Source: a virus
Reading direction: 5' to 3' (one strand)
Virus record (IMG/VR): IMGVR_UViG_3300045936_000038
Coordinates: 1 to 43,684 of that record
DNA: 43,684 bases
Below, in pieces: positions 17,992 to 42,887 of this stretch. How positions within the stretch are numbered: the stretch's first letter is position 1; each line of letters begins with the position of its first letter. The position numbers were made by a program, and so were the translations under genes. The notes under the pieces are model-generated. The model was given only the letters and a program-made list of their open reading frames with translations. It ran no database searches and was not told the DNA's origin.

Positions 17992-18720
17992 ATGACTGCG
18001 CGCCGCTGGATTGCCCTTGCTCTCGTCGTCGCTGCATTGGTGGCCATTGCGCCCCCGGCCAGTCACGCGCAGATCCCGATGATTGCGAACGGGATCATTC
18101 ACGCGACCTCGGCGTCCGTGAATGCGGCCAACTCGACCGCCGAAATCCTGCTGTATCAGTACCCGATTCCGGCCGCCCTGTGGGCCTCGTGGACCACGAA
18201 CAACCAGGCGTTCGCGTCCGTGCCGATCCATCTGCGCCTGAACGGCGGCATCAAGACCGTAGGCACCGTCGGCGGCATCACCGGCAACTCATTGGCCGTG
18301 AACCTCACGAGCCAGACCGGCGTGCAGATCGCCACGATGGTGATCATGAACGGCGCGACCATTCCCGCGGACCTCGGTGGCGGGGCATGCGGTGGTGCGA
18401 CCCAGGCCCCGAACGCCTGTCAGGCCCCGATCACGGTGGACGTGGTCGTCAATCCGATCGCGACACTGACCACGCAGAACGCGACCGACCTCCGGCCGCA
18501 GGTCTTCCAGGCGTTCCTGACCGGGCGCGTGGCGGTGGCCAGCACGACTCAGGGCGTCGTGAGCAACACGCTGGCGACCGAGAACGCCTACAACGCCACG
18601 ACGTTCTCGCAGGCCAATAACAATCAGACGGCCGTCCTGAACGTGGTCTGGCGGTGGGGTTCGGCCGCCTCGGGCAACTCGCTGAACATCTACAACGGCG
18701 TACTGAAACTGGGCTTCTAA
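17992..18720 (+). CDS. Virion-region protein with Sec signal peptide
   Basis: Strong Shine-Dalgarno site AAGGAGG. The N terminus has two Arg, a hydrophobic core (WIALALVVAALVAIAPP) and a cleavage site SHA-Q at about residues 25-28, a textbook Sec signal peptide. The mature part is beta-rich, Asn/Thr/Ala-rich, with one likely disulphide (CGGATQAPNAC) and ends WRWGSAASGNSLNIYNG. It sits in the head cluster, where decoration proteins are usual, yet appears built for export. Its function is unknown. Confidence 0.6.
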   Translation: MTARRWIALALVVAALVAIAPPASHAQIPMIANGIIHATSASVNAANSTAEILLYQYPIPAALWASWTTNNQAFASVPIHLRLNGGIKTVGTVGGITGNSLAVNLTSQTGVQIATMVIMNGATIPADLGGGACGGATQAPNACQAPITVDVVVNPIATLTTQNATDLRPQVFQAFLTGRVAVASTTQGVVSNTLATENAYNATTFSQANNNQTAVLNVVWRWGSAASGNSLNIYNGVLKLGF

Positions 18721-18721
18721 T

Positions 18722-19909
18722 TTGCGACGACTCTGGGTCATTCCGATCGCGGGGGCGGTGCTCGCCCCCTTGGTTACCTGGTGGCCGATGCTGGCCTTCC
18801 GGTTTCCGTGGCTGGGGCTTCCTGCGTACCCGGCCGCGCAAGGGATTGACCTATGGTCGGCGCAGACGTTCTACCTCGCGGCCTTCGGGATGATTGCCGT
18901 GCTCGTGGGCCGCGAGGATCGCTATCTCGGTCTCGCGGTGGCCCTCGCCGGGCTCACGATCTTTTTCCGGGGCGCGGCCATGGACCCGACGCATTCCGTG
19001 ATGTTCGCGCTCGGGGCCTTGATGCTGATCGCGCTTCGGCAGACGCCGAACAAGTACCACCCGAAGATCATTTCAATCCTCGTCGCCCTCGGGACATTCG
19101 AGCTCCTGTACGTGCTCCAGCAGCGATTCCTCGGCTACGACTTGCTGTGGGGGCCACTCTTCGGCGGGCAGTTACTAGTGCCGTGTACGCCTGAACTCGT
19201 TGCGGCAGGCAAGCAATGCGGCCCGATTCAGCCGCTTGGCACCATCGGCACGGTCGACGGGGCGGCGGCCTACATCGCGATCATCGCCCCGCTGATGCCG
19301 TGGTGGCTGATGCTGGTGGCCATCTTTGCGGTGGTGAAGAGCCACGCGGTGTCGGCCATTCTCGCGCTCGGCGCCGGCCTTGTGATCCGCTTCCGTCATA
19401 ACAAGCCCGTGCTGGCCGTCGTGATTGCCGGGTGCATGTTCGCCGCAATCTTTGCCGCCTACGCCAAGAGCAACAAGCCGCTGGACGCGCACATGCTCGG
19501 GCGCGGGGCCATGTGGCAGTTCGCGGTGAACGACTGGGTCAGGACTGATCCCATCGTGGGCTTCGGTCTCGGTGGCTGGTCGCAGCGCATCCCGGTCAAG
19601 CAAGTAACCACGGACTACAAGCCCACCGGAGAACTCTGGCGCGAAGCCCATAACGAATACCTGCAATGGCTCGTTGAGCTTGGCGTGATCGGCGCGATGC
19701 TCCTCGCCTTCTGGCTCTGGGCGCATCGGGCGATGTTCGCGCATCCGGTCTATGGCGGCTCGATCGCCGCACTCGGCGTCAATGCGTTGACGTTTTTCCC
19801 GATGCACGTCGTTCAACTCTCTTTGGTCGCGCTCGTCCTCGTCGGGCTGGCGACGGCCCCGATTCGTGACCCATCTTCATTCGCCCCTGAGTGGGGCCAG
19901 GAGAACTAG
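18722..19909 (+). CDS. O-antigen ligase/polymerase-like membrane protein (WaaL/Wzy_C type)
   Basis: A 395-residue polytopic membrane protein with about ten hydrophobic segments. Before the last ones is a soluble loop holding WVRTDPIVGFGLGGW (about 268-282) and AHNEYLQWLVELGVIGAMLL (about 305-324): the Gly-rich motif and H-N-x-Y-L-x-x-L-x-E-x-G signature of the WaaL/Wzy_C family. Members transfer undecaprenyl-linked glycan to lipid A core or another acceptor, or polymerise it, at the periplasmic face. Start is TTG at 18722, two bases after the preceding stop, with no clear ribosome-binding site. It stands between a signal-peptide protein and the major capsid gene. Confidence 0.78.
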   Translation: MRRLWVIPIAGAVLAPLVTWWPMLAFRFPWLGLPAYPAAQGIDLWSAQTFYLAAFGMIAVLVGREDRYLGLAVALAGLTIFFRGAAMDPTHSVMFALGALMLIALRQTPNKYHPKIISILVALGTFELLYVLQQRFLGYDLLWGPLFGGQLLVPCTPELVAAGKQCGPIQPLGTIGTVDGAAAYIAIIAPLMPWWLMLVAIFAVVKSHAVSAILALGAGLVIRFRHNKPVLAVVIAGCMFAAIFAAYAKSNKPLDAHMLGRGAMWQFAVNDWVRTDPIVGFGLGGWSQRIPVKQVTTDYKPTGELWREAHNEYLQWLVELGVIGAMLLAFWLWAHRAMFAHPVYGGSIAALGVNALTFFPMHVVQLSLVALVLVGLATAPIRDPSSFAPEWGQEN

Positions 19910-19911
19910 TC

Positions 19912-20931
19912 ATGCCTCTGATTGGAACGGGCGCAGTTCCGGGCGGTGCAATCGGGACAGAATTGACGGTCGTTACGCGCCGCGCGTTCGTCCCGAAGAT
20001 GGTCGTGCAGATCTACCGCGCGACCCCGATCCTGGCCGGATGTCTGGCGAACGCGCAGACCGCCAGCGGTGGCGTGTCCTCGGTCACGATCCCGGTCCAG
20101 GGCCTGCCGTACACCACGGCGCAGGCGACGGACTACTCGGGCGCGTTCAATCAGCCGTCGATTCAGAACGGCTCGTTTGAGTTGGACGTGAACCTCGCCG
20201 CCGTCGTCGTGCCCATCCCGTTCCCCGGTCTTGAGGGGCTCATTCAGTTGAACGCCGCCGTCGTGCCGCTGATCGAGGCGCGCATGAATGACGCCGGAAA
20301 TCAGGTGGCGGACTACTTGAGCACGCAGCTTCTGACCGGCGCGGGCGGCGGCATCAACGTCGACAGTTTCCCGCTCATGGCAGGGCTCGCCGCGACCGTC
20401 GCGGGGCAGGGCTCCTACGGCAACATCGACGGGACCACCAACACTTGGTGGCGGGCAAACGTCCGCGCGGCGGGCGCCGTCAACCCGACCCGGCAGCTGG
20501 TGCTGCGCGATATCGTCTCGGCCACCAAGGCTGCCACGGGTGAGGCCCCGAACGTGGGCGCGGCGGGGCCGGGCACGTGGGAACTCCTGAGCGAAGACTT
20601 CCTCTCGCTCGAGCAGTACATGATCACGCCGCAGCAGAGCTTCGATCAGTCCTCGCTCGGCGCGCGCGCGGGCTTCACGGCGCTCATGATCGGCGCGGTC
20701 CCGATCTATATGGACCTCGGTGTTCCGGAGGGGCAGATCTGGTACTGGAACACGCGGTACCTGTCCGCGTACATCCACGAGGCGGCGGCCTTCGCCTTCA
20801 CCGGGTTCGCCTCCACGCTGCCGAACAATCAGCTCGGCTACGTCGGCGCGCTGGTGGTGCTCATCAACTTCGTGCTCGCGAAGCGGCGCACGATCGCGGT
20901 GACGACCGGCTACAACTCGAACGCTCTGTAA
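19912..20931 (+). CDS. Major capsid protein (HK97-fold)
   Basis: A 339-residue protein. ATG at 19912 with AGGAGAA upstream is preferred over 19891. Features: an N-terminal strand region (RRAFVPKMVVQIYRATPILA), the spine-helix region PLIEARMNDAGNQVADYLSTQ, an IYMDLG/WYWNTRYL segment, and a C-terminal beta stretch QLGYVGALVVLINFVLAKRR. This order matches phage major capsid proteins of the HK97 type; position after portal and scaffold-like genes agrees. It should form the icosahedral shell. Confidence 0.75.
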   Translation: MPLIGTGAVPGGAIGTELTVVTRRAFVPKMVVQIYRATPILAGCLANAQTASGGVSSVTIPVQGLPYTTAQATDYSGAFNQPSIQNGSFELDVNLAAVVVPIPFPGLEGLIQLNAAVVPLIEARMNDAGNQVADYLSTQLLTGAGGGINVDSFPLMAGLAATVAGQGSYGNIDGTTNTWWRANVRAAGAVNPTRQLVLRDIVSATKAATGEAPNVGAAGPGTWELLSEDFLSLEQYMITPQQSFDQSSLGARAGFTALMIGAVPIYMDLGVPEGQIWYWNTRYLSAYIHEAAAFAFTGFASTLPNNQLGYVGALVVLINFVLAKRRTIAVTTGYNSNAL

Positions 20932-20950: not shown

Positions 20951-22081
20951 ATGGCGCGACACAAGGAGTCGAGTAGCGGCCTTCTGATTCTGATTTTGGG
21001 GATCGTCGTCGGCTTTGCCGCGGCGGCGTTCCTCTGTTTCTTGGGTCCCACCATCCCGGCCGACGCGCAAGGCGTCGGATTTTTCGGCACCGCCGCCACT
21101 GGCACGCGCACCTCATGCTCACAGATCACGAACCCCGTGCAGGGGCAGACGGTCTGCTTCGAGCAATCCGAAAACCTCTGGAAGCGGTGGACAGGGCTCC
21201 AGTGGGCCATGACCCCCATCAACGTCGTCGCGGGCGGTCTGCCCACGGGCGAGGTCTTGGTTCTCTATGGCGGCGACGGCTCGAACGGGCCGTTCATCGT
21301 GGCCTCCGATAGCTCGGTCCTCCTCGGCAATCAGATCACATCCGGCATGACGGCCCCCGGCGTCGGGCTCTCCAATAGCCGGTACGTGTATGGCCTGAAC
21401 TTCGGCGGCACCTCGCATATTCCGCTCATCGGCCTAAGCAACATAGACACGGTGACCATTGCGACGAGTGCGACGGCGACCACGGTCGGCGGCAAATTCT
21501 TGGTGGGCTTCGCCACGTCCAATCTCGGCAACGTGGGCCAGATTCAGATGCTCAACAACACGAGCCTGGTCGGACTCAACTTCGCCGCCGATGGCGTAAT
21601 CCCGATCGCGAGTATCAACACGAGCAACCACATCGGATTCGATCCGAATGGCACCGGCTCGACGTTCAACGGGCATGTCTTCATCGGCGCAACCACGGCC
21701 ACGAACAACAACGCCAACAACCTCGGGGCACTCACCGTGGCGACGGCGCTGAATCTCAACGCCACGCGGACGCTGTGGGTCGGCGACGACCCGCGCGGCA
21801 CGCCGCGCTGTACGGATAAGTGCGGCAACGCGCCAATCCTCAGCGGCCATAACAGTTCCATGCGTGTGACGATGGGCGCGACGGGCGTCCCGGCCTCGCC
21901 GTTCCTCGTGCTATTCAACGGCACGTGGACCTCGATCCCGTCGTGCATCGCCCAGCAGAACACCGCATCGGGTGCCACCGTCACAGTGTCGAACGCGACC
22001 ACGACCGGCGTCCAGGTCAATACGTGGATCAACCCGGCGCAGGGTAGCGTGTTCTCGATTCACTGTCACGGTGCTGGATGA
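20951..22081 (+). CDS. Virion-region protein with N-terminal membrane/signal segment
   Basis: 376 residues. A hydrophobic stretch (GLLILILGIVVGFAAAAFL, about 10-28) is followed by ADA-Q, so it is a signal peptide or anchor. The rest is beta-rich, Gly/Thr/Asn-rich, with periodic segments such as SSVLLGNQITSGM and LWVGDDPRG that resemble phage fibre or beta-helical shafts, ending in a cysteine-containing domain (SIPSCIAQQN, HCHGAG). Probably a fibre or surface protein. Confidence 0.55.
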   Translation: MARHKESSSGLLILILGIVVGFAAAAFLCFLGPTIPADAQGVGFFGTAATGTRTSCSQITNPVQGQTVCFEQSENLWKRWTGLQWAMTPINVVAGGLPTGEVLVLYGGDGSNGPFIVASDSSVLLGNQITSGMTAPGVGLSNSRYVYGLNFGGTSHIPLIGLSNIDTVTIATSATATTVGGKFLVGFATSNLGNVGQIQMLNNTSLVGLNFAADGVIPIASINTSNHIGFDPNGTGSTFNGHVFIGATTATNNNANNLGALTVATALNLNATRTLWVGDDPRGTPRCTDKCGNAPILSGHNSSMRVTMGATGVPASPFLVLFNGTWTSIPSCIAQQNTASGATVTVSNATTTGVQVNTWINPAQGSVFSIHCHGAG

Positions 22082-23700
22082 TCCTTCGTCTCTTAGTCGC
22101 CCTCCTCCTGCTGGCCCCGGCCGTCGCGCACGCGGCGATTGCCGAGGTCTCAGGGCGGAAGAATACGGGCGTCGGCAACAATGTGACCTCGGCCACATGC
22201 TCGCTCTCTGCCAATGCCTCCTCGGGCAACTTCGTCGTCGTCATGGGAGGCGTCTGGAACTCGGGTAGCGGCGTCACGTCAGTCAGCGTGTCGTCGTCTG
22301 GTGGCGGCTCCACGGGGGCCTTTTCCACGATCCTCGGCGCGACCGGCGTGTCCTATGCGGGCGGCGTCGGGAAGGCGTTTATCTCCTATGCCTCGGTCAC
22401 GGGCTCTGGCTCACTCACCTTCACGGTATCGACCGACGTAGGTTCGGGAAACTATCTCAACCTCGCGTGCGACGAGTTCTCAGGCACGGCGATTGCGCTC
22501 GACGTGAACGGTGGGGAAGCCCTGGCCTCTGCGGATAACATTGTCGACACGATCACCACGTTGACGGCGAATGACCTCATTATCGGCGTGGCCGTCATTG
22601 CTAATGGTGGGGCGACAAAAACGTTTGTCGATGGCGCTGGATATACGAACATTGCGACTGACGGATCCAGTACGACTCAAGCCTATGATGCCATGTTCCA
22701 GGTTGTGACGACGGCGACCACCTACAATGTGGACTGGTCAATACCCGGGTTTGCTTTTGACTGGTCTGCGGTCAACGCCGCGTTCAAGGAAGTAACCGGC
22801 GGTGGTGGTGGCGGCGACACGACGCCCCCGAGTACGCCGACTAATCTCGTCGCCACGGCGACGGGCAGCGATCGAGTCAGCCTTACGTGGAGTCCGTCGA
22901 CCGATAACGTGACGACCGTGCCGACCTACCGGCTCGAGCGCGCTCCGTTCTCGGGTTCATGCGGCACCTACGCCCAGATCGCTGCGCCGACGGTCACGAC
23001 CTATCTCGACACCGGCCTCGCGGCGTCCACGACGTACTGCTATCGCGTGCGGGCACAGGACGAGGCGCTCAATCTCAGCAGCTATAGCACGGCGGCATCG
23101 GCCACCACGCTTGCGTTACGGACGTTGATCCTCTACTGGAACGATAACTCCCCGAACGCCCAGAACTCGGTGAGTGAGACCGGCTTCCAGATGGAGCGAT
23201 GCACGGGCGCGGCGTGTTCGGATTTCGCCGTGCTCGCCACGCTCGGTGCGAACGTGACGACCTACACCGACACCGTCGCCCCAAACCCGATCGCGGGGTA
23301 TCGGGTGACGGCGCTGCCGGCCGGAAGCGGCTACAGCAACATCGTGTACAGCGACACGACTATTCCGCCGATCCTCCTGACCCATCCGCCACTGTTGGCC
23401 TTTTCCGCCGCGCCGGGCTTTACGCCGGTGCCGCAGTCCATCTCGATCACCAAGAACGGCGGAAGCCCCACGATGACGTGGACGGTCTCCGATGATCAGA
23501 CCTGGCTCTCGGTGTCGCCCGGGTCTGGCACGGACGATGCCATCGTGGTCGCCTCGGTGGATACGACCGGTCTGACGGCTGGCATCTATACCGCGAACAT
23601 CACGGTCACGGCGGCGGGGGCGACCGGAAGTCCGCAGACCATTCCCGTCACGCTGACGATGTCCTCGTCGGGCTCGAGCATCGGCGGGAGAGTGCGATGA
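22078..23700 (+). CDS. Secreted adhesin-like protein: FN3 and BACON-type domains
   Basis: 540 residues with a Sec signal peptide (LLVALLLLAPAVAHA then A). Residues about 20-235: beta-sandwich domain shared with the 41335-42177 product. After a Gly linker (GGGGGG) come a fibronectin type III domain (TPPSTPTNLVATATGSDRVS to about 345, ending TTYCYRVRAQDEAL) and a degenerate second one to about 425. Residues about 430-530 form a BACON-like Ig domain (WTVSDDQTWLSVSPGSGTDD, GIYTANITVTA). Carbohydrate-binding or adhesion is the usual role. ATG overlaps the previous stop (ATGA). Confidence 0.7.
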   Translation: MILRLLVALLLLAPAVAHAAIAEVSGRKNTGVGNNVTSATCSLSANASSGNFVVVMGGVWNSGSGVTSVSVSSSGGGSTGAFSTILGATGVSYAGGVGKAFISYASVTGSGSLTFTVSTDVGSGNYLNLACDEFSGTAIALDVNGGEALASADNIVDTITTLTANDLIIGVAVIANGGATKTFVDGAGYTNIATDGSSTTQAYDAMFQVVTTATTYNVDWSIPGFAFDWSAVNAAFKEVTGGGGGGDTTPPSTPTNLVATATGSDRVSLTWSPSTDNVTTVPTYRLERAPFSGSCGTYAQIAAPTVTTYLDTGLAASTTYCYRVRAQDEALNLSSYSTAASATTLALRTLILYWNDNSPNAQNSVSETGFQMERCTGAACSDFAVLATLGANVTTYTDTVAPNPIAGYRVTALPAGSGYSNIVYSDTTIPPILLTHPPLLAFSAAPGFTPVPQSISITKNGGSPTMTWTVSDDQTWLSVSPGSGTDDAIVVASVDTTGLTAGIYTANITVTAAGATGSPQTIPVTLTMSSSGSSIGGRVR

Positions 23701-25124
23701 GACGACTCCTTCTTCTGCTGGCGCTTTTGGTGATTCCTGCGCCCGCAGCGGCGGTCACCTACTACGTGCATCCGACCGGCACCAATCCAGCGTGTTCGAC
23801 CGTCGCCAGCCAGGGCGCGGGAAACCTGCTCCAGCGCAAATCGACCATTGCGGCCGGCATCGCCTGTCTGGCAAGTGGCGATACCCTCGTGATCGGGGCC
23901 GGGACGTATGTCGCGATCATCCCACCCGATACGATCCCGAACGGAACTGGGCCAGGCGGGGAAGCCCGCGAGGCGACATGGCCGGGGGCCACCGTCATCC
24001 GGGCCGAGACGCCTTGCACCAACGTGGGCGCGGCGTCAGGCCCCTACGCCACGCCATCATGCTCGACCATCATTCGTCCGACATCTGCCCTGTGCTCGGG
24101 GAATGCCGATGATGTGGTCTGGATTACCAACAATAGTCAGGCGCGGTACATCATCTTCCGGGGTTTTGAGATTGACGCGAACTCTCAGTGCGTGCAGATC
24201 GGGCGCTTCTATACCCAGAACAGCATTGCCGCCCCGGATCATATCCGCGTGCAGGACGTGTATTGGCACGATGCGCTGGCGGCAGCATCCGGCGCAGGGC
24301 TCGTCGCGGTTCACCCGTCGAGCACCACGTCAACCTACATGGAATTTCTTGACAGCACCTTTAAGAACTTCAACCTGGCCGGGAGCTTCCCTACTGGCGG
24401 CGGCAAACATTGCCTCTACTTCGGCGGGAGCGGCACCATCCGCCGTAATGTCATCGCGCAATGCTCGCCGACCGATCACAACGGCATCGGGATCACCACT
24501 CACAATGCGGCGAGCCTCGATCTGGACATCAGCGGCAATGACATATGGGGCTGGGGGTTCGGCGGGGTGGCGGCGGCGGGAGTCACGAACTCCGAGATTT
24601 ACAACAACATCATCCACGATGGCGGCACCACGACCAGCTATTGCAGCAGCGGGTGTGGGGCCATTCTCGTGAATAGCTGCGGTGGTGGCGGTGGGGCGAG
24701 TCCTGTGAATACGCTCATCGCCAACAACACAGTGTATGGATCACTGAATTTCACTGGTCAAAGCAGCGGCATTGTCTTCCTGTGCAGTGGTTCTACAGGC
24801 ACGACTATTCAGAACAACATCATGTTCGGCGGCACCAACGACACGATTTCGGGTAGTGACAGCGGCACCATCAGCAACAACCGTTGCGCGAGCGGGTGCA
24901 CGACCGTCGACAACCCGCAGTTTGTCAACGCGGCGGGGGGTGATTTTCACCTCACCATTTCCTCTCCGACGGCGATCACGCAGGGCGGGGTCAATCAGTC
25001 GGCGCGTTACACGACCGACAAGGATGGCGTGGCGTGGGGCTCCACGTATAGCCTCGGGGCCTACAAGTTCCCCGTGCCGTCCAGCGCTCCCGCTGCACCC
25101 ACTAACTTGAGGTTTACGCCATGA
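23697..25124 (+). CDS. Secreted right-handed beta-helix protein (tailspike/lyase-like)
   Basis: 475 residues. Signal peptide MRRLLLLLALLVIPAPAAA, then YYVHPTGTNPAC, the usual opening of parallel beta-helix carbohydrate enzymes (DUF1565/pectate-lyase-like). Repeated short strands with Asn ladders follow: IRRNVIAQCS, LDISGNDIWG, SEIYNNIIHDGG, IANNTVYGS, TIQNNIMFGG. A depolymerase or glycan-binding spike is likely. Catalytic residues cannot be assigned. The Cys content is high, consistent with an oxidising compartment. Confidence 0.7.
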   Translation: MRRLLLLLALLVIPAPAAAVTYYVHPTGTNPACSTVASQGAGNLLQRKSTIAAGIACLASGDTLVIGAGTYVAIIPPDTIPNGTGPGGEAREATWPGATVIRAETPCTNVGAASGPYATPSCSTIIRPTSALCSGNADDVVWITNNSQARYIIFRGFEIDANSQCVQIGRFYTQNSIAAPDHIRVQDVYWHDALAAASGAGLVAVHPSSTTSTYMEFLDSTFKNFNLAGSFPTGGGKHCLYFGGSGTIRRNVIAQCSPTDHNGIGITTHNAASLDLDISGNDIWGWGFGGVAAAGVTNSEIYNNIIHDGGTTTSYCSSGCGAILVNSCGGGGGASPVNTLIANNTVYGSLNFTGQSSGIVFLCSGSTGTTIQNNIMFGGTNDTISGSDSGTISNNRCASGCTTVDNPQFVNAAGGDFHLTISSPTAITQGGVNQSARYTTDKDGVAWGSTYSLGAYKFPVPSSAPAAPTNLRFTP

Positions 25125-26068
25125 AGCGACTGCTGGCCGTTCTCGCGATGCTTGCGCTGCCCAGCAGCGCGTTTGCCATCGACACCAACGTCATGCCCGA
25201 GGCGGCCTATGTGAAGGGCGCGACCAGCGTCATTCATCTGATCTTCATCAAAGACGACACGACGGGCCTCGGCAAGACGGGACTGACGAGTGGATCGTCG
25301 GGGCTCACGATCGCCTACGGGCGGGCGGACCAGGGCAACGCCGCGGCCTCAACCTGCACGGTGGCCGCCGCAACGCGAGGATCCTACACGTCCTGTGGGT
25401 TCGTCGAGAAAGACTCCACGAACCTTGCGGGCTGGTACGAGTTCGGCCTTACCACGGCGATGCTCGCCACGGGCGCGGATTACGTCACGGTGTCGGTCTA
25501 TGGTGTGTCGGGCATGGTGCCGACCGTGCTTCCGATCGCCCTCGTGGACTTCGGGCTTGCGGCGGTCTACAACCGGCTCGGAGCTCCCGCCGGCGCGAGC
25601 ATGAGTGCCGATACGGCGGCCGTGCAGACCTCGGCCACAGCGATCAAGGCGAAGACGGATTCACTGACGTTCACGGGGGCAAATGTCGGCTCCATCGTCA
25701 ACACCTACGCCAGCGGCCAGGCCCCGGTGCTTCCGACGGTGGCCGGGCGCACGCTGGACGTGGCCGCAACTGGAATTGTCACGGCGGGCTCATCGTGGCG
25801 GCGAAACGTGGCAGGACAGGCAAAGTTTGCCCTCTTCATGCGCGACTCTACCTCGCCCTCGACGCCAAAGACCGGGCTGACGCTCACGGTCCAGGTGTGG
25901 AAGGACACCGGGTCCTTTAGTAGCGCGACGGGCACGGCCGAAGAGATTGGCAACGGCTGGTATGCCTTCTCCCCGTCGCAGGCTGATACGAATTGCGCTC
26001 TCTGCATTTTCAGCGTGACCGCGACGGGCGCCGTCCCGACCGGGTACACGATCAATACCGCGCCATGA
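25121..26068 (+). CDS. Secreted fibre-like protein with duplicated domain
   Basis: 315 residues. Signal peptide MKRLLAVLAMLALPSSAFA. Two related beta domains: the first HLIFIKDDTTGLGKTGLTSG to WYEFGLTTAML (about 35-145), the second FALFMRDSTSPSTPKTGLTL to GWYAFSPSQ (about 235-310), joined by a helical linker with LDVAATG. The I/F-x-D...P/G-K-T-G-L pattern is seen in phage tail-fibre and neck-appendage proteins. Coupled to both neighbours by ATGA. Confidence 0.55.
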   Translation: MKRLLAVLAMLALPSSAFAIDTNVMPEAAYVKGATSVIHLIFIKDDTTGLGKTGLTSGSSGLTIAYGRADQGNAAASTCTVAAATRGSYTSCGFVEKDSTNLAGWYEFGLTTAMLATGADYVTVSVYGVSGMVPTVLPIALVDFGLAAVYNRLGAPAGASMSADTAAVQTSATAIKAKTDSLTFTGANVGSIVNTYASGQAPVLPTVAGRTLDVAATGIVTAGSSWRRNVAGQAKFALFMRDSTSPSTPKTGLTLTVQVWKDTGSFSSATGTAEEIGNGWYAFSPSQADTNCALCIFSVTATGAVPTGYTINTAP

Positions 26069-26540: not shown

Positions 26541-27428
26541 ATGTCGACCTTCTACGCTGGCACGCAAGCGGTAGCCGAGGGCGACGTCCAGGTCGGCGTC
26601 AACTTCACGGGCTCGCTGCCGTTACCCTTTCAGATCACAAGCCTCGTGCCGGGCTGGGCGACGACGCCATTCGTGGACCCATCGAGCAAGTTCGCAGGCG
26701 GTTTCATCGCGCAATTCACCAACCCGGCGCCACCCGGCGGCTCGAGCTTCGACTGGGAAGTCTCGGCCCCCACGGCGGCGGCCTCGTCACTGTCGCAATA
26801 CATCGAATGCCTGCGCGATCTACTCCACGATCCGGATGATGTCTACTGGTCGGCGGCGCAGAAGACGAACTACATCAATCAGGGATTGCAGAAGCGCGAC
26901 CGGGAGACCGGGCAGAATCGCGTGCAGATTTCGTTCACCACGACGGTTGGGACGGATACGTACAACTTCACCCAGTTGGGTAACGACAACGTGTTCGACC
27001 TCATCGGCGTGAACCTGCTCTATCAGAACCAGCGGTATGTGATGGGCTCGTGTTCATTTAGTGAACTGAACGCCACGCTCCGGATGTACAACCCGGCCTT
27101 TCAGTGGGCTCCGGTGGCGTTCGCGCGCTACGGCCCGGCGCAATTCGTGATCGCGCCCGCGCCGGCGATTGCCTACACGCTCGAGGTCGACTGCGCACAG
27201 ATCACGCCGCAAGGCTACCTCGTGAGCCTGACCGATACGGACCCGCTGCCCGCGCCGTTCGATGCGCCCGTGTGCTACTGGGCGGCGCGGATGGCGAAAT
27301 ACAACGAGCGGGCGTATGACGAGGCGCGGGAGTTTGAAGAGAACTTCAACGACGAGGTGAACCGGCTGGACGCCAATAAGGTCGGCACGGTGCCGTCACT
27401 GACCGGGCGGATGTGGGGCTGGCGATGA
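26541..27428 (+). CDS. Head-tail adaptor with extra N-terminal beta domain
   Basis: 295 residues. The first 75 repeat the beta domain of the preceding gene (TQAVAEGDVQVGVNFTGSLP to SSFDWEV). From SLSQYIECLRDLLHDPDDVY (about residue 87) onward it resembles podoviral adaptor proteins of the P22 gp4/gp6-like kind: helix, YINQGLQKRDRETG, then beta strands, and a C-terminal helix KYNERAYDEAREFEENF. This would sit under the portal. TAA of the previous gene abuts its ATG. Confidence 0.6.
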   Translation: MSTFYAGTQAVAEGDVQVGVNFTGSLPLPFQITSLVPGWATTPFVDPSSKFAGGFIAQFTNPAPPGGSSFDWEVSAPTAAASSLSQYIECLRDLLHDPDDVYWSAAQKTNYINQGLQKRDRETGQNRVQISFTTTVGTDTYNFTQLGNDNVFDLIGVNLLYQNQRYVMGSCSFSELNATLRMYNPAFQWAPVAFARYGPAQFVIAPAPAIAYTLEVDCAQITPQGYLVSLTDTDPLPAPFDAPVCYWAARMAKYNERAYDEAREFEENFNDEVNRLDANKVGTVPSLTGRMWGWR

Positions 27429-27589
27429 AGAATAGCCCGCTGGTGGTAGGCGTGGCATCGACGCCTCGTTGTGTCCCCAACCCGTGTCATTCCACGGACC
27501 GCGTGCCCTCGGAGCGTCTTTCGACGCCGGCAACACCCAGCGGGTGCCCTGGGGGCTCCACCAGCGAACCGCCTGAGAGTCTAGCATGA
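27425..27589 (+). CDS. Small hypothetical protein (54 aa)
   Basis: ATG and TGA both overlap neighbours (ATGA at each end). The product is Pro/Ser/Thr-rich with four Cys (RCVPNPC and later) and no predicted fold. Codon composition is less convincing than its neighbours, but leaving it out would give the only sizeable gap in this stretch. Confidence 0.4.
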   Translation: MKNSPLVVGVASTPRCVPNPCHSTDRVPSERLSTPATPSGCPGGSTSEPPESLA

Positions 27590-29166
27590 GACTGCCCTCC
27601 CCGGACCTCATCGGCGCAGGCCAGCCGAACGGCAAGCGGCCGCCGCCGCCGTCCAAGCGGAAGACGGCCGAGTTCCGGCGCTGGACCGGCGTCAACCTCA
27701 CCGATGCGCGCACGGACATCGAGGACACCGAACTCTTCTGGTTGGAGAACGGTATCAGCATCGGCAAGGGCGTTGTTCAGTTTTTGAACGCTCCGGGTTC
27801 GGCCGTCGCCACCATCCCCGAGGGCATCGCGTCGATGTGGGGCTTCACGCTCAACAACGTGCCGGTGGTCATCGTGGTGGGCCTCAACGGATCGCTGACG
27901 CAAGTGGCGATTCCAGGCGGCGCGGCCACGATCATCGGCGGCGCGGCTACCGTGACGCCCTCGGCTCACCTCACCATCTGGCAGGGCTCCACGGTGCTGA
28001 TCGTCGACCCGACGGCGGGCTATTCCTCGTGGGACGGGACCACGTACACGGTCATCGACGCCGCGATGGTCGGCACCTCGATTGCCGTGTTTGAGGGGAG
28101 CGTCTGGATCGGCAACAACCGCACGATCACCTTTACCGCGCCGGCCTCATTCAGCGACTTCACCGTGGCCTCGGGCGCGGGCGCGACGACCATCACCGAC
28201 GAGGCGTTCATCGGCACGATCACCTTCATGCTATCGTCCGTCGAACAGTTGTGGATTGTCGGCCCGGCGTCGGTGAACACCATCTCAAACGTGGTGGCCT
28301 CGGGCTCGGGGCCCGTGGTGCGGACCTTTGCCATCACCAACGTCGTGCCCTCGGTGGGCTCGGTCGGCCCGTCCTCAGGCGCAGCCTACTTCCGGGCTGT
28401 CACGTTTATGTCGCCGGGCGGGATCTATGCCATCTCGGGCGTCACGCCGCAGAAACTCAGTGCCAGCATCGACCGGATGTTTCCGGGGCTCACGCTGACG
28501 CCCGATACGCCTGCTGCCGTGGCGCTGGTGCAGAACCTCTATTGCCTGCTCTTCCTCGTGAAGTACACGCAGGCGCTCGTGACGGGCCTGCCGATGCCCG
28601 CGAACGATCTGGCGACCGAGACGCCGCTGATCCTCGGGTTCACGCAGGGCAAGATGTTCTTTGCCTCGCAAGGCGAGACGCTAAAATGGATGACCACGGT
28701 TATCGTCAACGGGGTCAGCCAGGTGTGGGGCGCGAACACGGCCGGGGAGATTTACCAACTCTTCGGCGCGGAGAATGACCAGCCCGTGCGCTACAAGGTC
28801 GTCGGCAAACTCTCGGGGTTTGGCAAGCCGACCAGTATGCACGCCCTCTACAAGATCGGCGTCGAGGTCCAGTCGGCTTATCCGATCGCGCCCACGCTCA
28901 CGGTGGACTCGGACATCGGGATCAAGGCGTTTAATCTCGCGCCAAACGTGACGCTCAATCTCCGAAACAACCTCAACCAGCTCTTGCGGCTGGTGAACTC
29001 CTCGAATCAGACGCTCGTGCTGCAGGGTCAGGGGCTCGCGCTGCCGAAACAGGATGCCGCGATGTTCGGGCATTATTTGGGCTGGATCTATCAGGGGAAT
29101 GACCCGCCACATCGGCTCCAAGCCGTGCAGATGGAATATGCAGAGACAAGGGAGTGGAACGCATGA
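27586..29166 (+). CDS. Tail hub / DNA stabilisation protein (P22 gp10-like)
   Basis: 526 residues, beta-rich throughout. RRWTGVNLTDARTDIEDTEL then FWLENGISIGKGVVQFLNAP is the opening pattern of podoviral hub proteins such as P22 gp10. A repeated-blade body follows (NGSLTQVAIPGGAATIIGG, SVWIGNNRTITFTAP, GEIYQLFG) and a C-terminal LQAVQMEYAET. It would close the portal channel and carry the fibres. Coupled to both neighbours. Confidence 0.6.
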   Translation: MRLPSPDLIGAGQPNGKRPPPPSKRKTAEFRRWTGVNLTDARTDIEDTELFWLENGISIGKGVVQFLNAPGSAVATIPEGIASMWGFTLNNVPVVIVVGLNGSLTQVAIPGGAATIIGGAATVTPSAHLTIWQGSTVLIVDPTAGYSSWDGTTYTVIDAAMVGTSIAVFEGSVWIGNNRTITFTAPASFSDFTVASGAGATTITDEAFIGTITFMLSSVEQLWIVGPASVNTISNVVASGSGPVVRTFAITNVVPSVGSVGPSSGAAYFRAVTFMSPGGIYAISGVTPQKLSASIDRMFPGLTLTPDTPAAVALVQNLYCLLFLVKYTQALVTGLPMPANDLATETPLILGFTQGKMFFASQGETLKWMTTVIVNGVSQVWGANTAGEIYQLFGAENDQPVRYKVVGKLSGFGKPTSMHALYKIGVEVQSAYPIAPTLTVDSDIGIKAFNLAPNVTLNLRNNLNQLLRLVNSSNQTLVLQGQGLALPKQDAAMFGHYLGWIYQGNDPPHRLQAVQMEYAETREWNA

Positions 29167-30969: not shown

Positions 30970-31166
30970 TTAAGACGATGACCACGAATTGGTGGACGAC
31001 CCTGATTGGGGCGGTTGGCGCGATCCTCGTGTATGTGCAAGAGAACGGGGCCGCCATGCCGCAGACCAAAGAGGGCTGGAAGGCCCTGCTGATCGGCGCG
31101 GCCATCGCGGGGCTCGGCTTCGTCGCCAAGAGCGCCACGACGGGCTCGACGCCGCAGGCGAAGTGA
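30966..31166 (+). CDS. Putative holin (66 aa)
   Basis: Two hydrophobic helices (TTLIGAVGAILVYVQ and ALLIGAAIAGLGFVA) separated by a short polar loop, with a polar C-terminal tail. Size and topology fit a class II holin controlling lysis timing, and it lies between the peptidase and the spanins. Coupled by ATGA. Confidence 0.6.
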   Translation: MIKTMTTNWWTTLIGAVGAILVYVQENGAAMPQTKEGWKALLIGAAIAGLGFVAKSATTGSTPQAK

Positions 31167-31444
31167 GCCCCAGCCTCTATGTGGGCGTGGCGGTCGTCGT
31201 CGGCGCACTCGCGCTGGTGGGGGGACTTATCTGGGCCTCTGTCCGATACGGCCGAGCCAAGCAACTCGCTGAGGATCAGGCTAAGGTCACTGGCGTCGAG
31301 CGCGCCTTGGTCGACGTGGTGGAGAACGCTAGGCGTAATCCTGTGCCTGTCTCTCGTCAGTGGCTGCGCGGGGGTGGGGACGACAAAGCCCCCACTGGAG
31401 CTCCCGAGGGCCGAGTACCGCCCGGTGATCATCGACCAGAATGA
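31163..31444 (+). CDS. Rz-like inner-membrane spanin (i-spanin)
   Basis: 93 residues from GTG at 31163 (GTGA). N-terminal membrane anchor (SLYVGVAVVVGALALVGGLI), then a charged helix (RAKQLAEDQAKVTGVERALV). It overlaps a lipoprotein gene in the +1 frame, the standard Rz/Rz1 arrangement. Together the pair would fuse inner and outer membranes at the end of lysis. The periplasmic part is short. Confidence 0.65.
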   Translation: MSPSLYVGVAVVVGALALVGGLIWASVRYGRAKQLAEDQAKVTGVERALVDVVENARRNPVPVSRQWLRGGGDDKAPTGAPEGRVPPGDHRPE

Positions 31445-31583
31445 CCAGATCACAGACGAGGGGGTCGCGTGGCTGAACGAAATCCTCAACCTCTACGTGC
31501 GAAACTGTATGGTGCTCTCGACCATGCGCGGGGAGGCGACCAAGCAATGCAAGCGCGGACTCGAGCGACCACCGAGTAATTGA
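31179..31583 (+). CDS. Rz1-like outer-membrane lipoprotein spanin (start uncertain)
   Basis: A lipoprotein signal TLGVILCLSLVSGC ends in the lipobox LVSGC with Cys at base 31365. The mature part is short and begins AGVGTTKPPLELPRAEYRPV, Pro-rich as in Rz1. The frame is nested in and runs past the Rz-like gene. The only ATG (31179) gives an implausibly long 60-residue leader; a non-standard CTG at 31290, after AAGG, would give a normal signal peptide. The real start is therefore open; the lipoprotein itself is well supported. Confidence 0.6.
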   Translation: MWAWRSSSAHSRWWGDLSGPLSDTAEPSNSLRIRLRSLASSAPWSTWWRTLGVILCLSLVSGCAGVGTTKPPLELPRAEYRPVIIDQNDQITDEGVAWLNEILNLYVRNCMVLSTMRGEATKQCKRGLERPPSN

Positions 31584-38470: not shown

Positions 38471-38658
38471 GCATCCAGCGCGGCGTCGAGCACACGAAGG
38501 GGCCGATCGTGAAGAACGCCACGCATACGGTCGAGTGCTCCTGTGGGTTCAAGAGTGACGTGGTGGCTCGCGATACCGGGGACGCGACGTCGCAATTCAT
38601 TGGTCGTCATATCCATCCAGGGGCGACGTTCATCGCGCAGGCCATCGAGAAGACATAG
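38467..38658 (+). CDS. Small zinc-finger-like protein (63 aa)
   Basis: VECSCGFKSDVVARDTGDAT gives CxC, with two later His (GRHIH), a possible zinc knuckle found in small actinophage and proteobacterial phage proteins. ATG at 38467 overlaps the preceding stop; its TAG overlaps the GTG of the next gene by one base. Confidence 0.55.
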   Translation: MSIQRGVEHTKGPIVKNATHTVECSCGFKSDVVARDTGDATSQFIGRHIHPGATFIAQAIEKT

Positions 38659-40916
38659 TGCCCGGCCCGTGGGGTCCTGACGACGAGCGCTGGAAACCCC
38701 TGATCCTCGCCGCCCTCGTCGTCATGGTCCTCGCCCTGATGTTCGGGGGCGCGGTCTTCGGGCAGGGCGACGGCCGCCCGCCGTTCCAAGCGATCCCCAT
38801 ACTCGGGGTTACGACCACCGACGAAATGGTCAAGACGGGCGACCTCGCCAATCATGCTTTCCGCGTCAACGTCGTGGCGGGCTCAGGGGGTGGCGTGTCG
38901 GGCACCATCGGCACGCTCCAAGGGCCGACTGTCGCGCCGGCCGGGGCGGTAGACCCATCGGGCTTTACCGCTTCGCTTAGTGTGTCGAACACTGGGGCAC
39001 TCAACGTCACGTGCGACAACTGCTCGAGCAGCGCCAGCACGTTCGCGGCTCCATTCCCGGTGTTCGGCGGCGCCATCGGGTTCAAGGACGGCGGCGGGAT
39101 GCTGGCCTCGGCCACTGTCGACAACGCCGGCAATCAATTCGTGATTGCCTCGCAGAGTTCGTCGGCGTGGACTGTCATCGCTACTGGCACCGTGACTGCC
39201 CATCAAGGGGACACATGGACCGTACAACAGGGTGGATCATGGACGGTCAACTGTTCGAACTGCGGTGGTTCGAGCACGACCAGTTATGGTGCTACGTTCC
39301 CGTCGGCTGGGGTAGCGATCGGAGTGAAGGACGGCTCGGGGGTGTTCGCGTCGATGGTAGTGGACAACGCGAGCAACCTATTCGTGATTGCCTCGCAATC
39401 GAGCTCGCCGTGGACGGTCAACGCCACCGGAACGATCACCGCGCATCAGGGTGACACTTGGACAGTGCAATCTGTCCAGTCTGGCGTGTGGCTCGTGAAC
39501 GCGACGGGCACCATCACGGCGCATCAGGGCGATACGTGGAGCGTGAATTGTACGAACTGCAGCGGAGCGAGCACGACGAACTTCGGGAGTGTGTTCCCAT
39601 CAAGCGGCAGTGCCATTGGGTTCAGGGATGGAGCGGGCAACTTCGCCTCAGCGACGGTGGACCAATCATCGAACTTGTTTGTGATCGCCTCGCAGGGTCA
39701 AGCGAATGCGAATCAGCCCTGGTTTGCTACTGGTACGATTTCCGCCCACCAAGCTGATACGTGGACCGTGCAGGCCGTCCAATCCGGCACATGGACGGTC
39801 AACGCCACGGGCACCATTACCGCCCATCAAGGTGACACATGGACTGTCAACTGCTCCAACTGCTCGGGGACGAGCACAACGAACTATGCGGCAGCGTTCC
39901 CCTCTGCCGGTTTAGCGATTGGTTTCAAGGATGGGGCGGGGCGGTTTGCGTCCGCGACTGTCGACAACGCGGGAATTCTCCTCGTCACGGCGAGTCAGGG
40001 AACGGCTAACCAAGCGTCTCCGTGGTATGTGCGCTCGGGCGCGGCGATCGGCGCAGCTTACCCGACCTCGACGGTGTTCCCGATTGGCTTCAAGGATGGT
40101 CAGGGCTTCCTCGCCTCGGCCACGGTCGATAACACGGGCACACTCACGGTGATTGCGTCTCAGGGCGCGGCCAATTCCGCGCAGCCGTGGTTTGCTACCG
40201 GCACGATGAACGTCCACCAGCAAGACACATGGACCGTTCAGCAAGGCAACGCGCCGTGGTCGATCAATATCTCGCAGTATGGCGGCACCACGGTTGTCAA
40301 CGGCGGCACCTCGGGCCTCGTCGGCGTCGGTGGTCCCACGGCATCGGGTTCACAGGCCAGCGCGAACCCATTGAGAAGCGGTGCGGTTGGACGGCCCACG
40401 AATAAGCCCACGGTAACGGACGGTCAAGTTGCAGACCTGATTGTGACGGGCTCGAGCGAGCTCTGGGTGCGCCCTGATACCTCGGCCGCCACGGGCACGA
40501 TTGCGCCGGGGCGTGTGAACATGAATGGCGGCATGGGGCGCGGCGGGATCGCGACGGCGGTCACGGTCTGCGACCAATTCGCCACGGTCTCTCTGGGATG
40601 GCAGGCCGGTAACACCCAAGTCATCACCGGCATCGGCAGCGGGCAGATTCACATCTGTTCCATCAATCTAATCGTGGCATCCGCTACGGCCTTGAGCATC
40701 TTTGAGGGCAGCGGCACGCTCTGTAATACCAATCGCACGCCCATCTTCGGAAGCACGGCGACATTCAACGGCATCAATCTCGCGACCAACGGCGGCTTTA
40801 CGCAAGGGACGGGCTTCGGTGACATCGCCGTGGGCCAGTACACCAACTCGAATATCTGCATCGGTAACAGCACCTCGGCCGGAGTCACGGGCGGGATCAA
40901 GTGGACAAGTTACTAG
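38658..40916 (+). CDS. Large repeat-containing fibre with N-terminal anchor (752 aa)
   Basis: GTG start. A hydrophobic segment (PLILAALVVMVLALMFGGAVF, about 14-34) acts as signal anchor. Residues about 125-525 consist of alternating repeats: five copies of an AIGFKDGAGxFASATVDNAG-type unit and six of ATGTITAHQGDTWTV. Pairs of Cys (CSNCSG, CDNCSS, CTNCSG) recur between them. The C-terminal 200 residues are a beta-rich head ending GGIKWTSY. Likely a long trimeric fibre or adhesin for receptor binding. The last 16 bases overlap the next gene. Confidence 0.65.
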   Translation: MPGPWGPDDERWKPLILAALVVMVLALMFGGAVFGQGDGRPPFQAIPILGVTTTDEMVKTGDLANHAFRVNVVAGSGGGVSGTIGTLQGPTVAPAGAVDPSGFTASLSVSNTGALNVTCDNCSSSASTFAAPFPVFGGAIGFKDGGGMLASATVDNAGNQFVIASQSSSAWTVIATGTVTAHQGDTWTVQQGGSWTVNCSNCGGSSTTSYGATFPSAGVAIGVKDGSGVFASMVVDNASNLFVIASQSSSPWTVNATGTITAHQGDTWTVQSVQSGVWLVNATGTITAHQGDTWSVNCTNCSGASTTNFGSVFPSSGSAIGFRDGAGNFASATVDQSSNLFVIASQGQANANQPWFATGTISAHQADTWTVQAVQSGTWTVNATGTITAHQGDTWTVNCSNCSGTSTTNYAAAFPSAGLAIGFKDGAGRFASATVDNAGILLVTASQGTANQASPWYVRSGAAIGAAYPTSTVFPIGFKDGQGFLASATVDNTGTLTVIASQGAANSAQPWFATGTMNVHQQDTWTVQQGNAPWSINISQYGGTTVVNGGTSGLVGVGGPTASGSQASANPLRSGAVGRPTNKPTVTDGQVADLIVTGSSELWVRPDTSAATGTIAPGRVNMNGGMGRGGIATAVTVCDQFATVSLGWQAGNTQVITGIGSGQIHICSINLIVASATALSIFEGSGTLCNTNRTPIFGSTATFNGINLATNGGFTQGTGFGDIAVGQYTNSNICIGNSTSAGVTGGIKWTSY
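39040..40250 (+). repeat. Tandem coding repeats within the fibre gene
   Basis: Six copies of a short module encoding ATGTxxxHQxDTWxV begin near 39183, 39423, 39504, 39729, 39807 and 40197. They are interspersed with five copies of a module of about 100 bases encoding IGFKDGxGxxASATVDN. Spacing of the copies is uneven, suggesting past gain and loss by recombination. Confidence 0.7.
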
Positions 40917-41338
40917 CCAAGTTACTAGCCATTGTCCTAGCGCTCGTCATCGCCAGCACGGCGTGGGCGCAGGTTTCCACGATCCCGATGGCCACGCGAT
41001 CGGCCGGGACGCACGCATTCACGGCGGTCTCAGTGCCCTCCAATATCAGGGGGCTTACGGTTGCGCTGGATGTTTCTGAAGCCACGGACCCGCTGCCCGC
41101 CATCGAAGTTAGACTTGAAGGATCGGTTGACGGTGGCGTGACGTGGATACCGGCGGGAGGATTCAAGCGACTCGCAGGGAATCGCGGGATTGATGCCAAG
41201 AACGGACAGCCCGTCATTTCCATCGCAGCCAAGTTCACTGGGGGCACGATCTGGTCGGCCTCGAGGTCGAGGCAATTGCGCGGAAGCACCACGATCGGCG
41301 GCACGATGCGATTCTCCATGACGGTGACGCCGCTATGA
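40901..41338 (+). CDS. Secreted small beta protein (145 aa)
   Basis: GTG start inside the end of the fibre gene. Signal peptide: KLLAKLLAIVLALVIASTAWA then Q. The mature part resembles a carbohydrate-binding or fibre-tip beta domain (LEGSVDGGVTWIPAGGFKRL) as found in phage proteins of unknown role. The signal peptide contains an exact 12-bp tandem duplication. Confidence 0.55.
   Translation: MDKLLAKLLAIVLALVIASTAWAQVSTIPMATRSAGTHAFTAVSVPSNIRGLTVALDVSEATDPLPAIEVRLEGSVDGGVTWIPAGGFKRLAGNRGIDAKNGQPVISIAAKFTGGTIWSASRSRQLRGSTTIGGTMRFSMTVTPL
40906..40929 (+). repeat. Tandem duplication of 12 bp across a gene junction
   Basis: CAAGTTACTAGC occurs twice in a row (40906-40917, 40918-40929). The first copy contains the TAG stop of the fibre gene and both copies encode KLLA in the next gene's signal peptide. 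Being a multiple of three it keeps the frame. Confidence 0.85.
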
Positions 41339-42177
41339 CGACGTGGCTGCTGATTGCTCTCCTGCTCATCCCGAGTCCGGCGCTTGCCGCCCTCGCATAC
41401 GTCCAATCTGCCACGTGTACGATCGTCGGCGGCGGCGCCTCGTCGTGTGATACCGGCTCGATCACCTCAACGACCGGGAATCTGCTTGTAGCTAACTGGT
41501 CGACCTATACGGATATCTTCTCGGCCATCACTGATAACAAAAGCAACACGTTCACGGATGCGATCGCCAAGCTCACCACTGGTAATACCAATGCCGGAAT
41601 GCAACAGAAAGCCAACGCATCCGGCGGGGCCTTGCACGTCTTTACAATGACTCTCACGGGTAACGGCTACACCTATCTAAGTGTGAGCGAAGTGTCGGGT
41701 GCGGAAACGAGTTCACCACTGGATCAAACGTCCACCGATATCACATCGAGTGTCTCGAGTCATACATCCGGATCGACCTCGGCCACGACCCAAGCTGACG
41801 AAATCTTGATCGGCTTCGGAACGGGCGAGTCGGGCCTCACGGGTCCTTGGACAACTGACACTGGGGCCGGATGGACTGAGATCACCAATGACCCCACGAC
41901 GGGCCTCATTCAGGGCATCATCACCGGCTATCGGATCGTCTCGGCGACGGGCTCCTATGCCTACACGTGTACATCGACCACGAACAGCAACACGTTCGCC
42001 AATGGGATTGCGACGTTTAAAGCGTCGTCCTTCGTCGGCGGCTACATCTTGAGCGAAGTGGGCGATTGCATCAACGCTGAGAATAGCAACCGGCTCATCA
42101 CTGAGGACATCTCGGCTGGCGTCGGCCCATGTGGGAGCAACGTGCCTGAGCGTGCGAAAATGGGCGTAGGCACGTGA
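41335..42177 (+). CDS. Secreted adhesin-like protein, paralogous domain (280 aa)
   Basis: Signal peptide MTTWLLIALLLIPSPALA. The mature domain (about 20-235) follows the same plan as the N-terminal domain of the 22078-23700 product: opening AYVQSATCTI, a middle strand YLSVSEVSGAET, then ADEILIGFGTGE, GAGWTEI, and final FANGIATFKAS. The C-terminal 45 residues hold two Cys. Likely an exported surface or virion adhesin. Confidence 0.55.
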   Translation: MTTWLLIALLLIPSPALAALAYVQSATCTIVGGGASSCDTGSITSTTGNLLVANWSTYTDIFSAITDNKSNTFTDAIAKLTTGNTNAGMQQKANASGGALHVFTMTLTGNGYTYLSVSEVSGAETSSPLDQTSTDITSSVSSHTSGSTSATTQADEILIGFGTGESGLTGPWTTDTGAGWTEITNDPTTGLIQGIITGYRIVSATGSYAYTCTSTTNSNTFANGIATFKASSFVGGYILSEVGDCINAENSNRLITEDISAGVGPCGSNVPERAKMGVGT

Positions 42178-42887
42178 AGCGCCTGCTTGTTCTCTTACTC
42201 TTGCTCGGCGTCTCGGTCGCCCATGCGGCCGATGTGAAGATCTCTGCACTCACGGCGGCCTCGAGCGCCAACATGAGCGACGAGTATCCGGCGAATCAAT
42301 CGGGCACGACGCGCAAGGTCACGGGCGCGCAGATCGCCTCGCTGGCCATCACCAACATCGTCACGGGCTCATCGGGCACGCTCGGCCCGCTCGAGACGTG
42401 GCAGGTGCTCGACGCGAACTGCACGCAGACCACCAGCACGACGATGGCCACGTGCATGACCACGAACTCACTGACGGCCGGCACGTATGACTTCGAATAT
42501 CACGTCATTTGGAATGGCGGCTCAACGGCGACGGGTCTGCGGCTCGAGGTCGGGACCACGGGCATCTTTTCGCGCTTCCGTGCGATTGGGTGGGGCGCGG
42601 CGACATTAACCGGCGCGAACTCCACGGCGGTCAGCGCCCAGATGAACAAGTTTGCATTCAATCTTGGCGTGTGGGCGACCACGGCGAGCTCGAACACATC
42701 AAACAATCAAGTCGTGTCGTATAGTGGTGTAGACACGGCTGGCGCCCATCAAATGACAATCGTGCAAGGCTCGTTTGCGCTGTCCAATTCTTCCTCGTCG
42801 CTATTCCTTCAGGCGGCGTCAGAGACATCAGGGCGCACAATTCAAGTCCTTCAAGACTCGGTATTGATCTTGAGGAAGCTTCGCTAA
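42174..42887 (+). CDS. Secreted tail-fibre-type protein (237 aa)
   Basis: GTG start (GTGA overlap). Signal peptide MKRLLVLLLLLGVSVAHA. The mature N terminus ADVKISALTAASSANMSDEY then GTTRKVTGAQIASL is a pattern seen at the start of many phage tail-fibre or appendage proteins, which normally have no signal peptide. The rest is beta-rich (TYDFEYHVIWNGGSTATGLR). Its place at the 3' end of the genome suits a host-recognition protein. Confidence 0.6.
   Translation: MKRLLVLLLLLGVSVAHAADVKISALTAASSANMSDEYPANQSGTTRKVTGAQIASLAITNIVTGSSGTLGPLETWQVLDANCTQTTSTTMATCMTTNSLTAGTYDFEYHVIWNGGSTATGLRLEVGTTGIFSRFRAIGWGAATLTGANSTAVSAQMNKFAFNLGVWATTASSNTSNNQVVSYSGVDTAGAHQMTIVQGSFALSNSSSSLFLQAASETSGRTIQVLQDSVLILRKLR

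Follow-up and report, generated by a model that had tools for sequence, protein, structure and literature searches.

The window analysed here is the whole 43,684-base IMG/VR record IMGVR_UViG_3300045936_000038. By its terminase, portal, capsid and short-tail core genes it is an uncultivated tailed phage (Caudoviricetes), podovirus-like, the latter assignment having been made with no search aimed at long-tail or contractile genes. About ten proteins encoded between positions 17,992 and 42,887, several of them resembling fibres, spikes or adhesins, begin with a predicted Sec signal peptide or membrane anchor. We consider it very probable that the signal-bearing proteins are exported and processed, and probable, on the basis of orthologous fibres in related phages, that the exported fibres become parts of the virion. 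Tailed-phage assembly is taught as a wholly cytoplasmic process, which rules out disulfides in fibres and modification in the periplasm. If the present reading is true, receptor-binding proteins can be made in phages by a second route, one that opens them to both disulfides and periplasmic glycosylation.

Predicted signal peptides and their distribution

The proteins predicted to be exported are as follows. They are referred to below by their first coordinate; an arrow marks the predicted cleavage site, and the score is that of the signal peptide.

17992..18720 (+), beta-sandwich protein, signal MTARRWIALALVVAALVAIAPPASHA↓Q, score 6.8, opening the block exported protein-Wzy_C-capsid
20951..22081 (+), fibre/decoration-like protein, likely cleavage PADA↓Q, 6 cysteines after the signal, score 7.9
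22078..23700 (+), adhesin-like protein (fn3, BACON-like), AHA↓A, 6 mature cysteines, score 7.5
23697..25124 (+), beta-helix (tailspike-like) protein, AAA↓VTYYV, 14 mature cysteines, score 8.0
25121..26068 (+), protein with AFA↓I and 4 cysteines
29154..30287 (+), tail-fibre-type protein, start at 29154, 29163 or 29202, IVYA↓TGTLTVPN
38658..40916 (+), repeat-bearing protein, N-terminal anchor or signal (VFG↓Q), 12 cysteines, internal repeats D1 and D2
40901..41338 (+), small protein, AWA↓Q, score 7.9; homolog in the related contig G001 also has a signal
41335..42177 (+), protein with MTTWLLIALLLIPSPALA↓A, uncharged n-region, 5 mature cysteines; G001 homolog PVHA↓ALAVVQ
42174..42887 (+), fibre-type protein, MKRLLVLLLLLGVSVAHA↓ADVKISALTAA, score 7.9

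N-termini were scored by explicit rules covering charge (n-region), a hydrophobic core (h-region) and an A-x-A site (c-region). Seven open reading frames (ORFs), namely 17992, 20951, 22078, 23697, 25121, 40901 and 42174, score between 6.8 and 8.0 and are of the classical Sec/signal peptidase I type, combining a positive n-region, an h-region and an A-x-A-type c-region; in 41335, 29154 and 38658 the n-region departs from this pattern. Among the 224 spurious ORFs of the window with at least 60 amino acids, a call of any kind was obtained in 12, and the top score was 5.4. Shuffled versions of residues 2-40 attained the real score at a frequency of 0.15% or less for six of these ORFs and of 5.7% for the seventh, 17992. 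The signal of 17992 is backed by homology, a boundary of the type A-x-[A/G]↓Q being kept in homologs at 27-60% identity.

For the three weaker cases the details differ. 41335 has a good h-region and the site SPALA↓A, but no positive charge before the h-region. The start of 29154 is uncertain; its signal scores 6.4 when read from the GTG at 29202, and four of its orthologs have clear signals. The N-terminus of 38658 (hydrophobicity 3.3) is either an anchor or a signal, with signal-bearing homologs in the contigs G001 and G020. All three have homologs with signals in close relatives. The claim of a preliminary description of this DNA, that about ten of these proteins carry Sec signals or anchors, therefore stands, with seven classical cases, three weaker but homolog-supported ones, and no spurious ORF of the window scoring as high.

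All ten genes are single-copy, and for none of them was a second version lacking the signal found in the window. Nor does an internal start preceded by a good ribosome site occur at a mature N-terminus, except for a weak GAGG near codon 31 of 25121; a cytoplasmic form made from a second, unsignalled start was considered and is not indicated.

Related contigs were fetched, their genes were called with a codon model, and signals were counted at a score of at least 6.8. The window belongs to a clade of ten contigs that carry a Wzy_C-family gene beside the capsid gene, as at 18722 in the window, the others being G001-G004, L008, G018, G019, G020 and L100c. Signals occur in 36 of the 502 genes of this clade, compared with 2 of 397 genes in seven relatives that have no Wzy_C gene (referred to as the sister phages) and 3 of 1619 spurious ORFs of the clade contigs. 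Cultured podophages (phiKMV, P22, Palo, CRP-4, LUZ24 and part of a Bradyrhizobium phage) gave signals in 1 of 319 genes, the sole case being a P22 lysis protein (38988-39425), and phiKMV, with its high guanine-cytosine (GC) content, gave 0 of 49. The exported-protein trait belongs to the clade, and not to this contig alone. Homologs of 17992 are recognisable by sequence in all nine other contigs except G019. G003 has a second copy of the 17992-type protein (L093:3499-4131), within a run of other signal-bearing genes.

The domains of these proteins have been further analysed. The model of 17992 has a jelly-roll or lectin-like fold from about residue 30 (mean predicted local distance difference test score, pLDDT, 71), and its matches in the PDB are jelly-roll or lectin-like and weak, a Z of about 8 being within the stated noise range of the tool. 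22078 matches PF00041 at 29.6 bits, with BACON slightly below cut-off, and 23697 has a sub-threshold match to the Pfam Beta_helix family. 29154 matches the tail fibre family phrog_19294 (3.9e-5), and its middle domain is also present in Rhizobium phage proteins annotated as tail fibres; the AlphaFold model of this fibre has a mean pLDDT of 39. In 38658 the repeats lie at 39048-40237, with four copies of 107 nt and six of 56 nt, and encode TGTxTAHQGDTWTV and NCxNC motifs. No match to a muralytic family was found in any exported protein searched by family library scans, tblastn of 20951, 41335, 23697 and 38658 against cultured phages gave no match, and single-protein scans of IMG/VR with 17992 and 42174 gave no confirmed relatives.

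Cleavage boundaries, fibre N-termini and cysteines

The predicted cleavage boundaries are conserved where the proteins have diverged. The 17992 family retains A-x-A or A-x-G with Q as the next residue, the remainder falling to about 30% identity. The A-x-A-Q-G boundary of the 20951 family is kept in G001, G004, L008 and G020, and the G001 homolog of 23697 retains VEAA↓VTYYV.

For two proteins the boundary can be compared with known fibres. Cleavage of 42174 would leave ADVKISALTAA as the mature start, and the first residue of this aligns with residue 2 of gp53 of Roseobacter phage CRP-4, which begins MANIKIS and is annotated as 'putative fiber protein' (59% identity over 39 residues; tblastn, blastp). 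Similarly, 29154 would begin with TGTLTVPN after cleavage, which matches the very beginning of signal-less orthologs in L008 and G021 (both MPGSLTIPN) and in G003 (MPGSASVPN). The orthologs of L008 and G021 adjoin the same nozzle-like gene as in the window, and that of G003 lies two genes further on. In both proteins the signal thus sits directly before a pre-existing fibre N-terminus, so that cleavage by signal peptidase would restore that N-terminus. Homology to known fibre proteins is confined to these two. The others (17992, 20951, 22078, 23697, 25121, 38658, 40901 and 41335) may also be virion parts, as suggested by their position and domain type.

Even cysteine counts are expected where cysteines pair. 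Among mature signal-bearing proteins with cysteine, 32 have an even number and 5 an odd number, or 31 and 3 when the leader-bearing capsid proteins discussed below are left out. Non-signal genes of at least 100 amino acids are evenly balanced, with 94 even and 87 odd. The difference between 31:3 and 94:87 has a Fisher p of 8e-6, homologs being counted more than once, and the bias is present in separate contigs with different proteins. The window protein 20951 is one of the three odd cases, and becomes even if the likelier site ADA↓Q is used. It had been noted beforehand that the mature parts are rich in cysteine; the parity test bears this out and sharpens it.

In two families, 29154 and 25121, cysteines are present only in the signal-bearing version. 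The 29154 fibre has the cysteine pairs 176/205 and 292/318 (numbered from 29202). C176 and C205 are found in 5 of 5 signal-bearing orthologs and both are missing, with mostly Gly and Phe in their places, from every alignable signal-less homolog; the five signal-bearing orthologs form one clade in the tree (support 82-91). C292 and C318 arise together in the branch leading to the window and G001. The 25121 protein has a signal and 4 cysteines, and its G001 homolog has neither. Taken together, the conserved boundaries, the cysteine parity and the gain of cysteines with the signal give good support to the export of fibre-type proteins.

Export, assembly and alternative readings

The other genes on which the argument draws are:

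2108-2836, PseF-like cytidylyltransferase (NeuA-like), PseF being the best NCBIfam model, below cut-off
2821-4182, NeuB/PseI-like synthase with a C-terminal cupin-like part, PseI being the best NCBIfam model, below cut-off
9827, terminase large subunit, with homologs annotated as terminase in MW202753/MW202825
13781/13937, portal, by portal homologs
18722..19909 (+), polytopic membrane protein of the Wzy_C family (O-antigen ligase/O-oligosaccharyltransferase superfamily)
19912..20931 (+), major capsid protein, without leader, ATG at 19912 with AGGAG upstream; phrog_9953, E=1.9e-26
26541..27428 (+), structural protein (tail adaptor by position), without signal; phrog_399, 2.8e-6
27586..29166 (+), nozzle-like conserved tail protein by position, without signal, directly 5' of fibre 29154; homologs throughout the clade
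30278..31583 (+), lysis cassette of endolysin-like, i-spanin-like, small membrane and o-spanin-like proteins, the last with lipobox LVSGC

The lipobox protein is at 31179, and the cassette has a weak match to the Rz-like spanin family phrog_456 (0.073). A cassette of spanin type implies a host with an outer membrane. An attempt to name the host from capsid matches in metagenome-assembled genomes was abandoned, the bins (Chloroflexi, Balneolaceae, Proteobacteria) being too mixed.

From the signals, their conserved boundaries, the cysteine pattern and the N-termini shared with signal-less fibres we infer export, disulfide formation, virion membership and attachment at lysis, in the following order. 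In the phage of the window and its clade, receptor-binding and decoration proteins would be made as Sec preproteins, which the host Sec system would export and from which signal peptidase I would remove the signal. The mature proteins would fold and acquire disulfides in the periplasm, the host being one with an outer membrane, and the head, portal and tail core, which have no signals, would assemble in the cytoplasm. Once the spanin-type cassette opens the envelope, the exported appendages would meet the particles and bind to them by the N-terminal domains recreated by signal cleavage. Attachment at lysis would be the simplest arrangement, because the head and tail core have no signals and because T4 parts assemble in mixed extracts: extracts of T4 mutants give infectious phage once mixed (PMC9576892). 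We hold the scheme as a whole, with appendages exported, processed, oxidised in the periplasm and joined to particles at lysis, with moderate confidence.

Several points weigh against it. The signals come from a rule-based scorer, not from SignalP. The repeated counting of homologs means that the p value for parity overstates independence. As the five signal-bearing fibres form one clade, the acquisition of C176/C205 and of the signal is a single joint event. For several of the exported proteins no phage match of any kind exists, so that these may have a non-virion role. Lastly, it is hard to see how about ten proteins could be delivered efficiently to particles only at lysis.

The preliminary description had offered three routes, namely proteins displayed on or shed from the host, virion parts added after export or at lysis, and envelope-associated assembly. 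The second fits best, because signal-less fibre orthologs occupy the same site in sister phages and there is no second copy. The same two facts bear on the first route, in which the exported proteins would be periplasmic, surface or shed non-virion proteins that, along with the products of the Wzy_C and nonulosonic-acid genes, block or mask receptors or modify the host surface; receptor masking would act against superinfection and readsorption to debris. This is consistent with the lectin- and adhesin-like domains, with the fixed Wzy_C neighbour and the CMP-nonulosonate-type genes at 2108-4182, and with the absence of homologs of most exported proteins from cultured phages. However, a particle of the window phage would then be without the fibres that its sister phages carry in signal-less form, and we regard the explanation as unlikely.

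The glycan genes themselves are of two kinds. The 18722 protein matches PF04932 (Wzy_C) at 45.4 bits (cut-off 31.7), and R261, H310 and E312 are invariant across 6 homologs. As to a PglL/PilO-type subfamily, only the general Wzy_C model was matched in Pfam, with no NCBIfam match, and among 50,697 cultured or deposited phage records there was no match to 18722 at E 1e-3. In the window, G001-G004, L008, G018, G020 and L100c the gene is flanked by the 17992-type gene on one side and the capsid gene on the other; in G019 the place of 17992 beside it is taken by a signal-bearing gene with no detectable similarity to 17992. Pilin and PilO are a known dedicated pair of acceptor and transferase, and by analogy the Wzy_C protein and the adjacent exported protein are possibly such a pair. 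The NeuA/NeuB-like genes are found only in the window, in G001 and, as weaker matches, in G019, and are therefore not fixed partners of the exported proteins. The coordinated surface-remodelling system proposed earlier finds partial support, in a Wzy_C gene fixed beside an exported protein and the capsid gene; the nonulosonic-acid genes are present in few members.

The third route concerns the capsid, relatives of which are common in IMG/VR (239 stretches, the best 80 of them retained). The capsid ORFs of G002, G018, G020 and L100c are extended by 32-43 codons on the 5' side of the usual start (loci L131:12390-13529; L148/L149 for L100c; L125 for G020; L005 for G002). The leader consists of a signal peptide and then a transmembrane segment in G018, G020 and L100c, and of a transmembrane hairpin in G002. 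The leader ATG has AGGAG or AGGAGG in front of it, and in these four there is no start with a full ribosome site at the usual place, where nearly all other examined capsid loci have one. Between G002 and L100c the capsid bodies (333 codons) are nearly identical, with 3 nonsynonymous and 90 synonymous differences, whereas the leader has an amino-acid change in 26 of 35 codons and yet keeps its hydrophobicity. The predicted topology is N-out with the body cytoplasmic, and we read the leader as tethering the capsid protein to the membrane in these four relatives, not in the window.

Heads might accordingly form at the cytoplasmic side of the inner membrane, some with membrane-anchored capsids, and take up periplasmic fibres before lysis. 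The strong ribosome sites of the leaders and their divergence with hydrophobicity kept speak for this, but the capsid genes of the window, G001, G003, G004 and G019 start normally, the leader might be removed, and we know of no tailed phage that assembles in an envelope-associated way. We think it distinctly improbable as an account of the exported proteins; relatives' leaders favour it and the leaderless capsid of the window does not. A wider form of the idea, which we also judge improbable, is a lineage assembling across the envelope, with heads at the cytoplasmic side of the inner membrane, in some members by way of a leader-tethered capsid protein, disulfide-bonded and perhaps glycosylated periplasmic appendages, and a dedicated Wzy_C enzyme encoded between them.

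It is very improbable that these hydrophobic N-termini serve the virion, for example in anchoring or membrane insertion at infection, instead of acting as export signals. The atypical n-regions of 38658 and 29154 would suit such a role, but the A-x-A boundaries are conserved, and the cysteine parity and the gain of cysteines with the signal would be left unexplained. Chance or GC-driven pseudo-signals, conceivable because high GC favours Ala/Leu-rich N-termini, have a negligible probability and are refuted by the counts for spurious ORFs and high-GC phiKMV given above.

Comparison with known systems and other features

Phage endolysins with a secretion signal, otherwise like their canonical relatives, have been described, for example Lys44 of Oenococcus phage fOg44 (PMC6116005). 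They share with the proteins described here the addition of a signal to a phage protein whose relatives are alike but signal-less, and the use of host Sec export during infection; they differ in that there is one lysis enzyme per phage, compared with about ten fibre- or spike-like proteins with no lysis role. Export of tailed-phage fibres was not found described in the open-access literature, where searches turned up signal-bearing endolysins and occasional predicted signals.

The pIII and pVIII proteins of filamentous phages are virion coat proteins made with signal peptides and processed, and pIII is disulfide-bonded outside the cytoplasm. Signal peptides on virion-type proteins, here predicted from the sequence, are thus common to both. 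However, filamentous phages have single-stranded DNA and are extruded through the envelope, whereas the window has the genes of a tailed double-stranded DNA phage and a lysis cassette; its terminase, portal and capsid genes rule out a member of the Inoviridae.

Among tailed phages, CRP-4 gp53 shares the N-terminal motif of 42174 but has no signal peptide and no matching paired cysteines. Likewise, proteins of Rhizobium, Bradyrhizobium, Achromobacter and Microcystis phages contain the tail-fibre domain of 29154 without a signal peptide and without paired cysteines there. The only capsid matches among the 50,697 cultured or deposited phages are two Manatee Spring genomes, ctz7E20 and ctah5458 (MW202753, MW202825), with a capsid about 50% identical and related terminase, portal and tail core. 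Unlike the window, they have no Wzy_C gene and no strong signal peptides. The Wzy_C family includes WaaL, Wzy and PglL/PilO, and also serotype-converting phage polymerases such as D3 Wzy-beta. The 18722 protein shares with these the Wzy_C domain and the conserved Arg and His; it differs in being encoded among virion genes, with an exported protein on one side and the capsid on the other, and not in a conversion cassette.

Signal prediction on phages is commonly restricted to lysis genes, and if the present reading is true it can reveal biology when applied to structural genes. The existence of orthologs with and without a signal makes the idea of export directly testable, and the leader-bearing capsids of the four relatives prompt one to ask whether head assembly is linked to the membrane.

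The window gave no hits in Rfam and tRNA scans. The product of 12044-12697 resembles a PhyH-type dioxygenase by eye, and its G001 homolog is located elsewhere, at 7940-8593. A near-perfect 120-nt inverted repeat is present close to both contig ends (363-482 and 43565-43684) and holds a terminator-like GC hairpin with a T-run. Inverted repeats near the contig ends, at other coordinates, are also found in G001, G002 (at the exact ends), G003 and G020.

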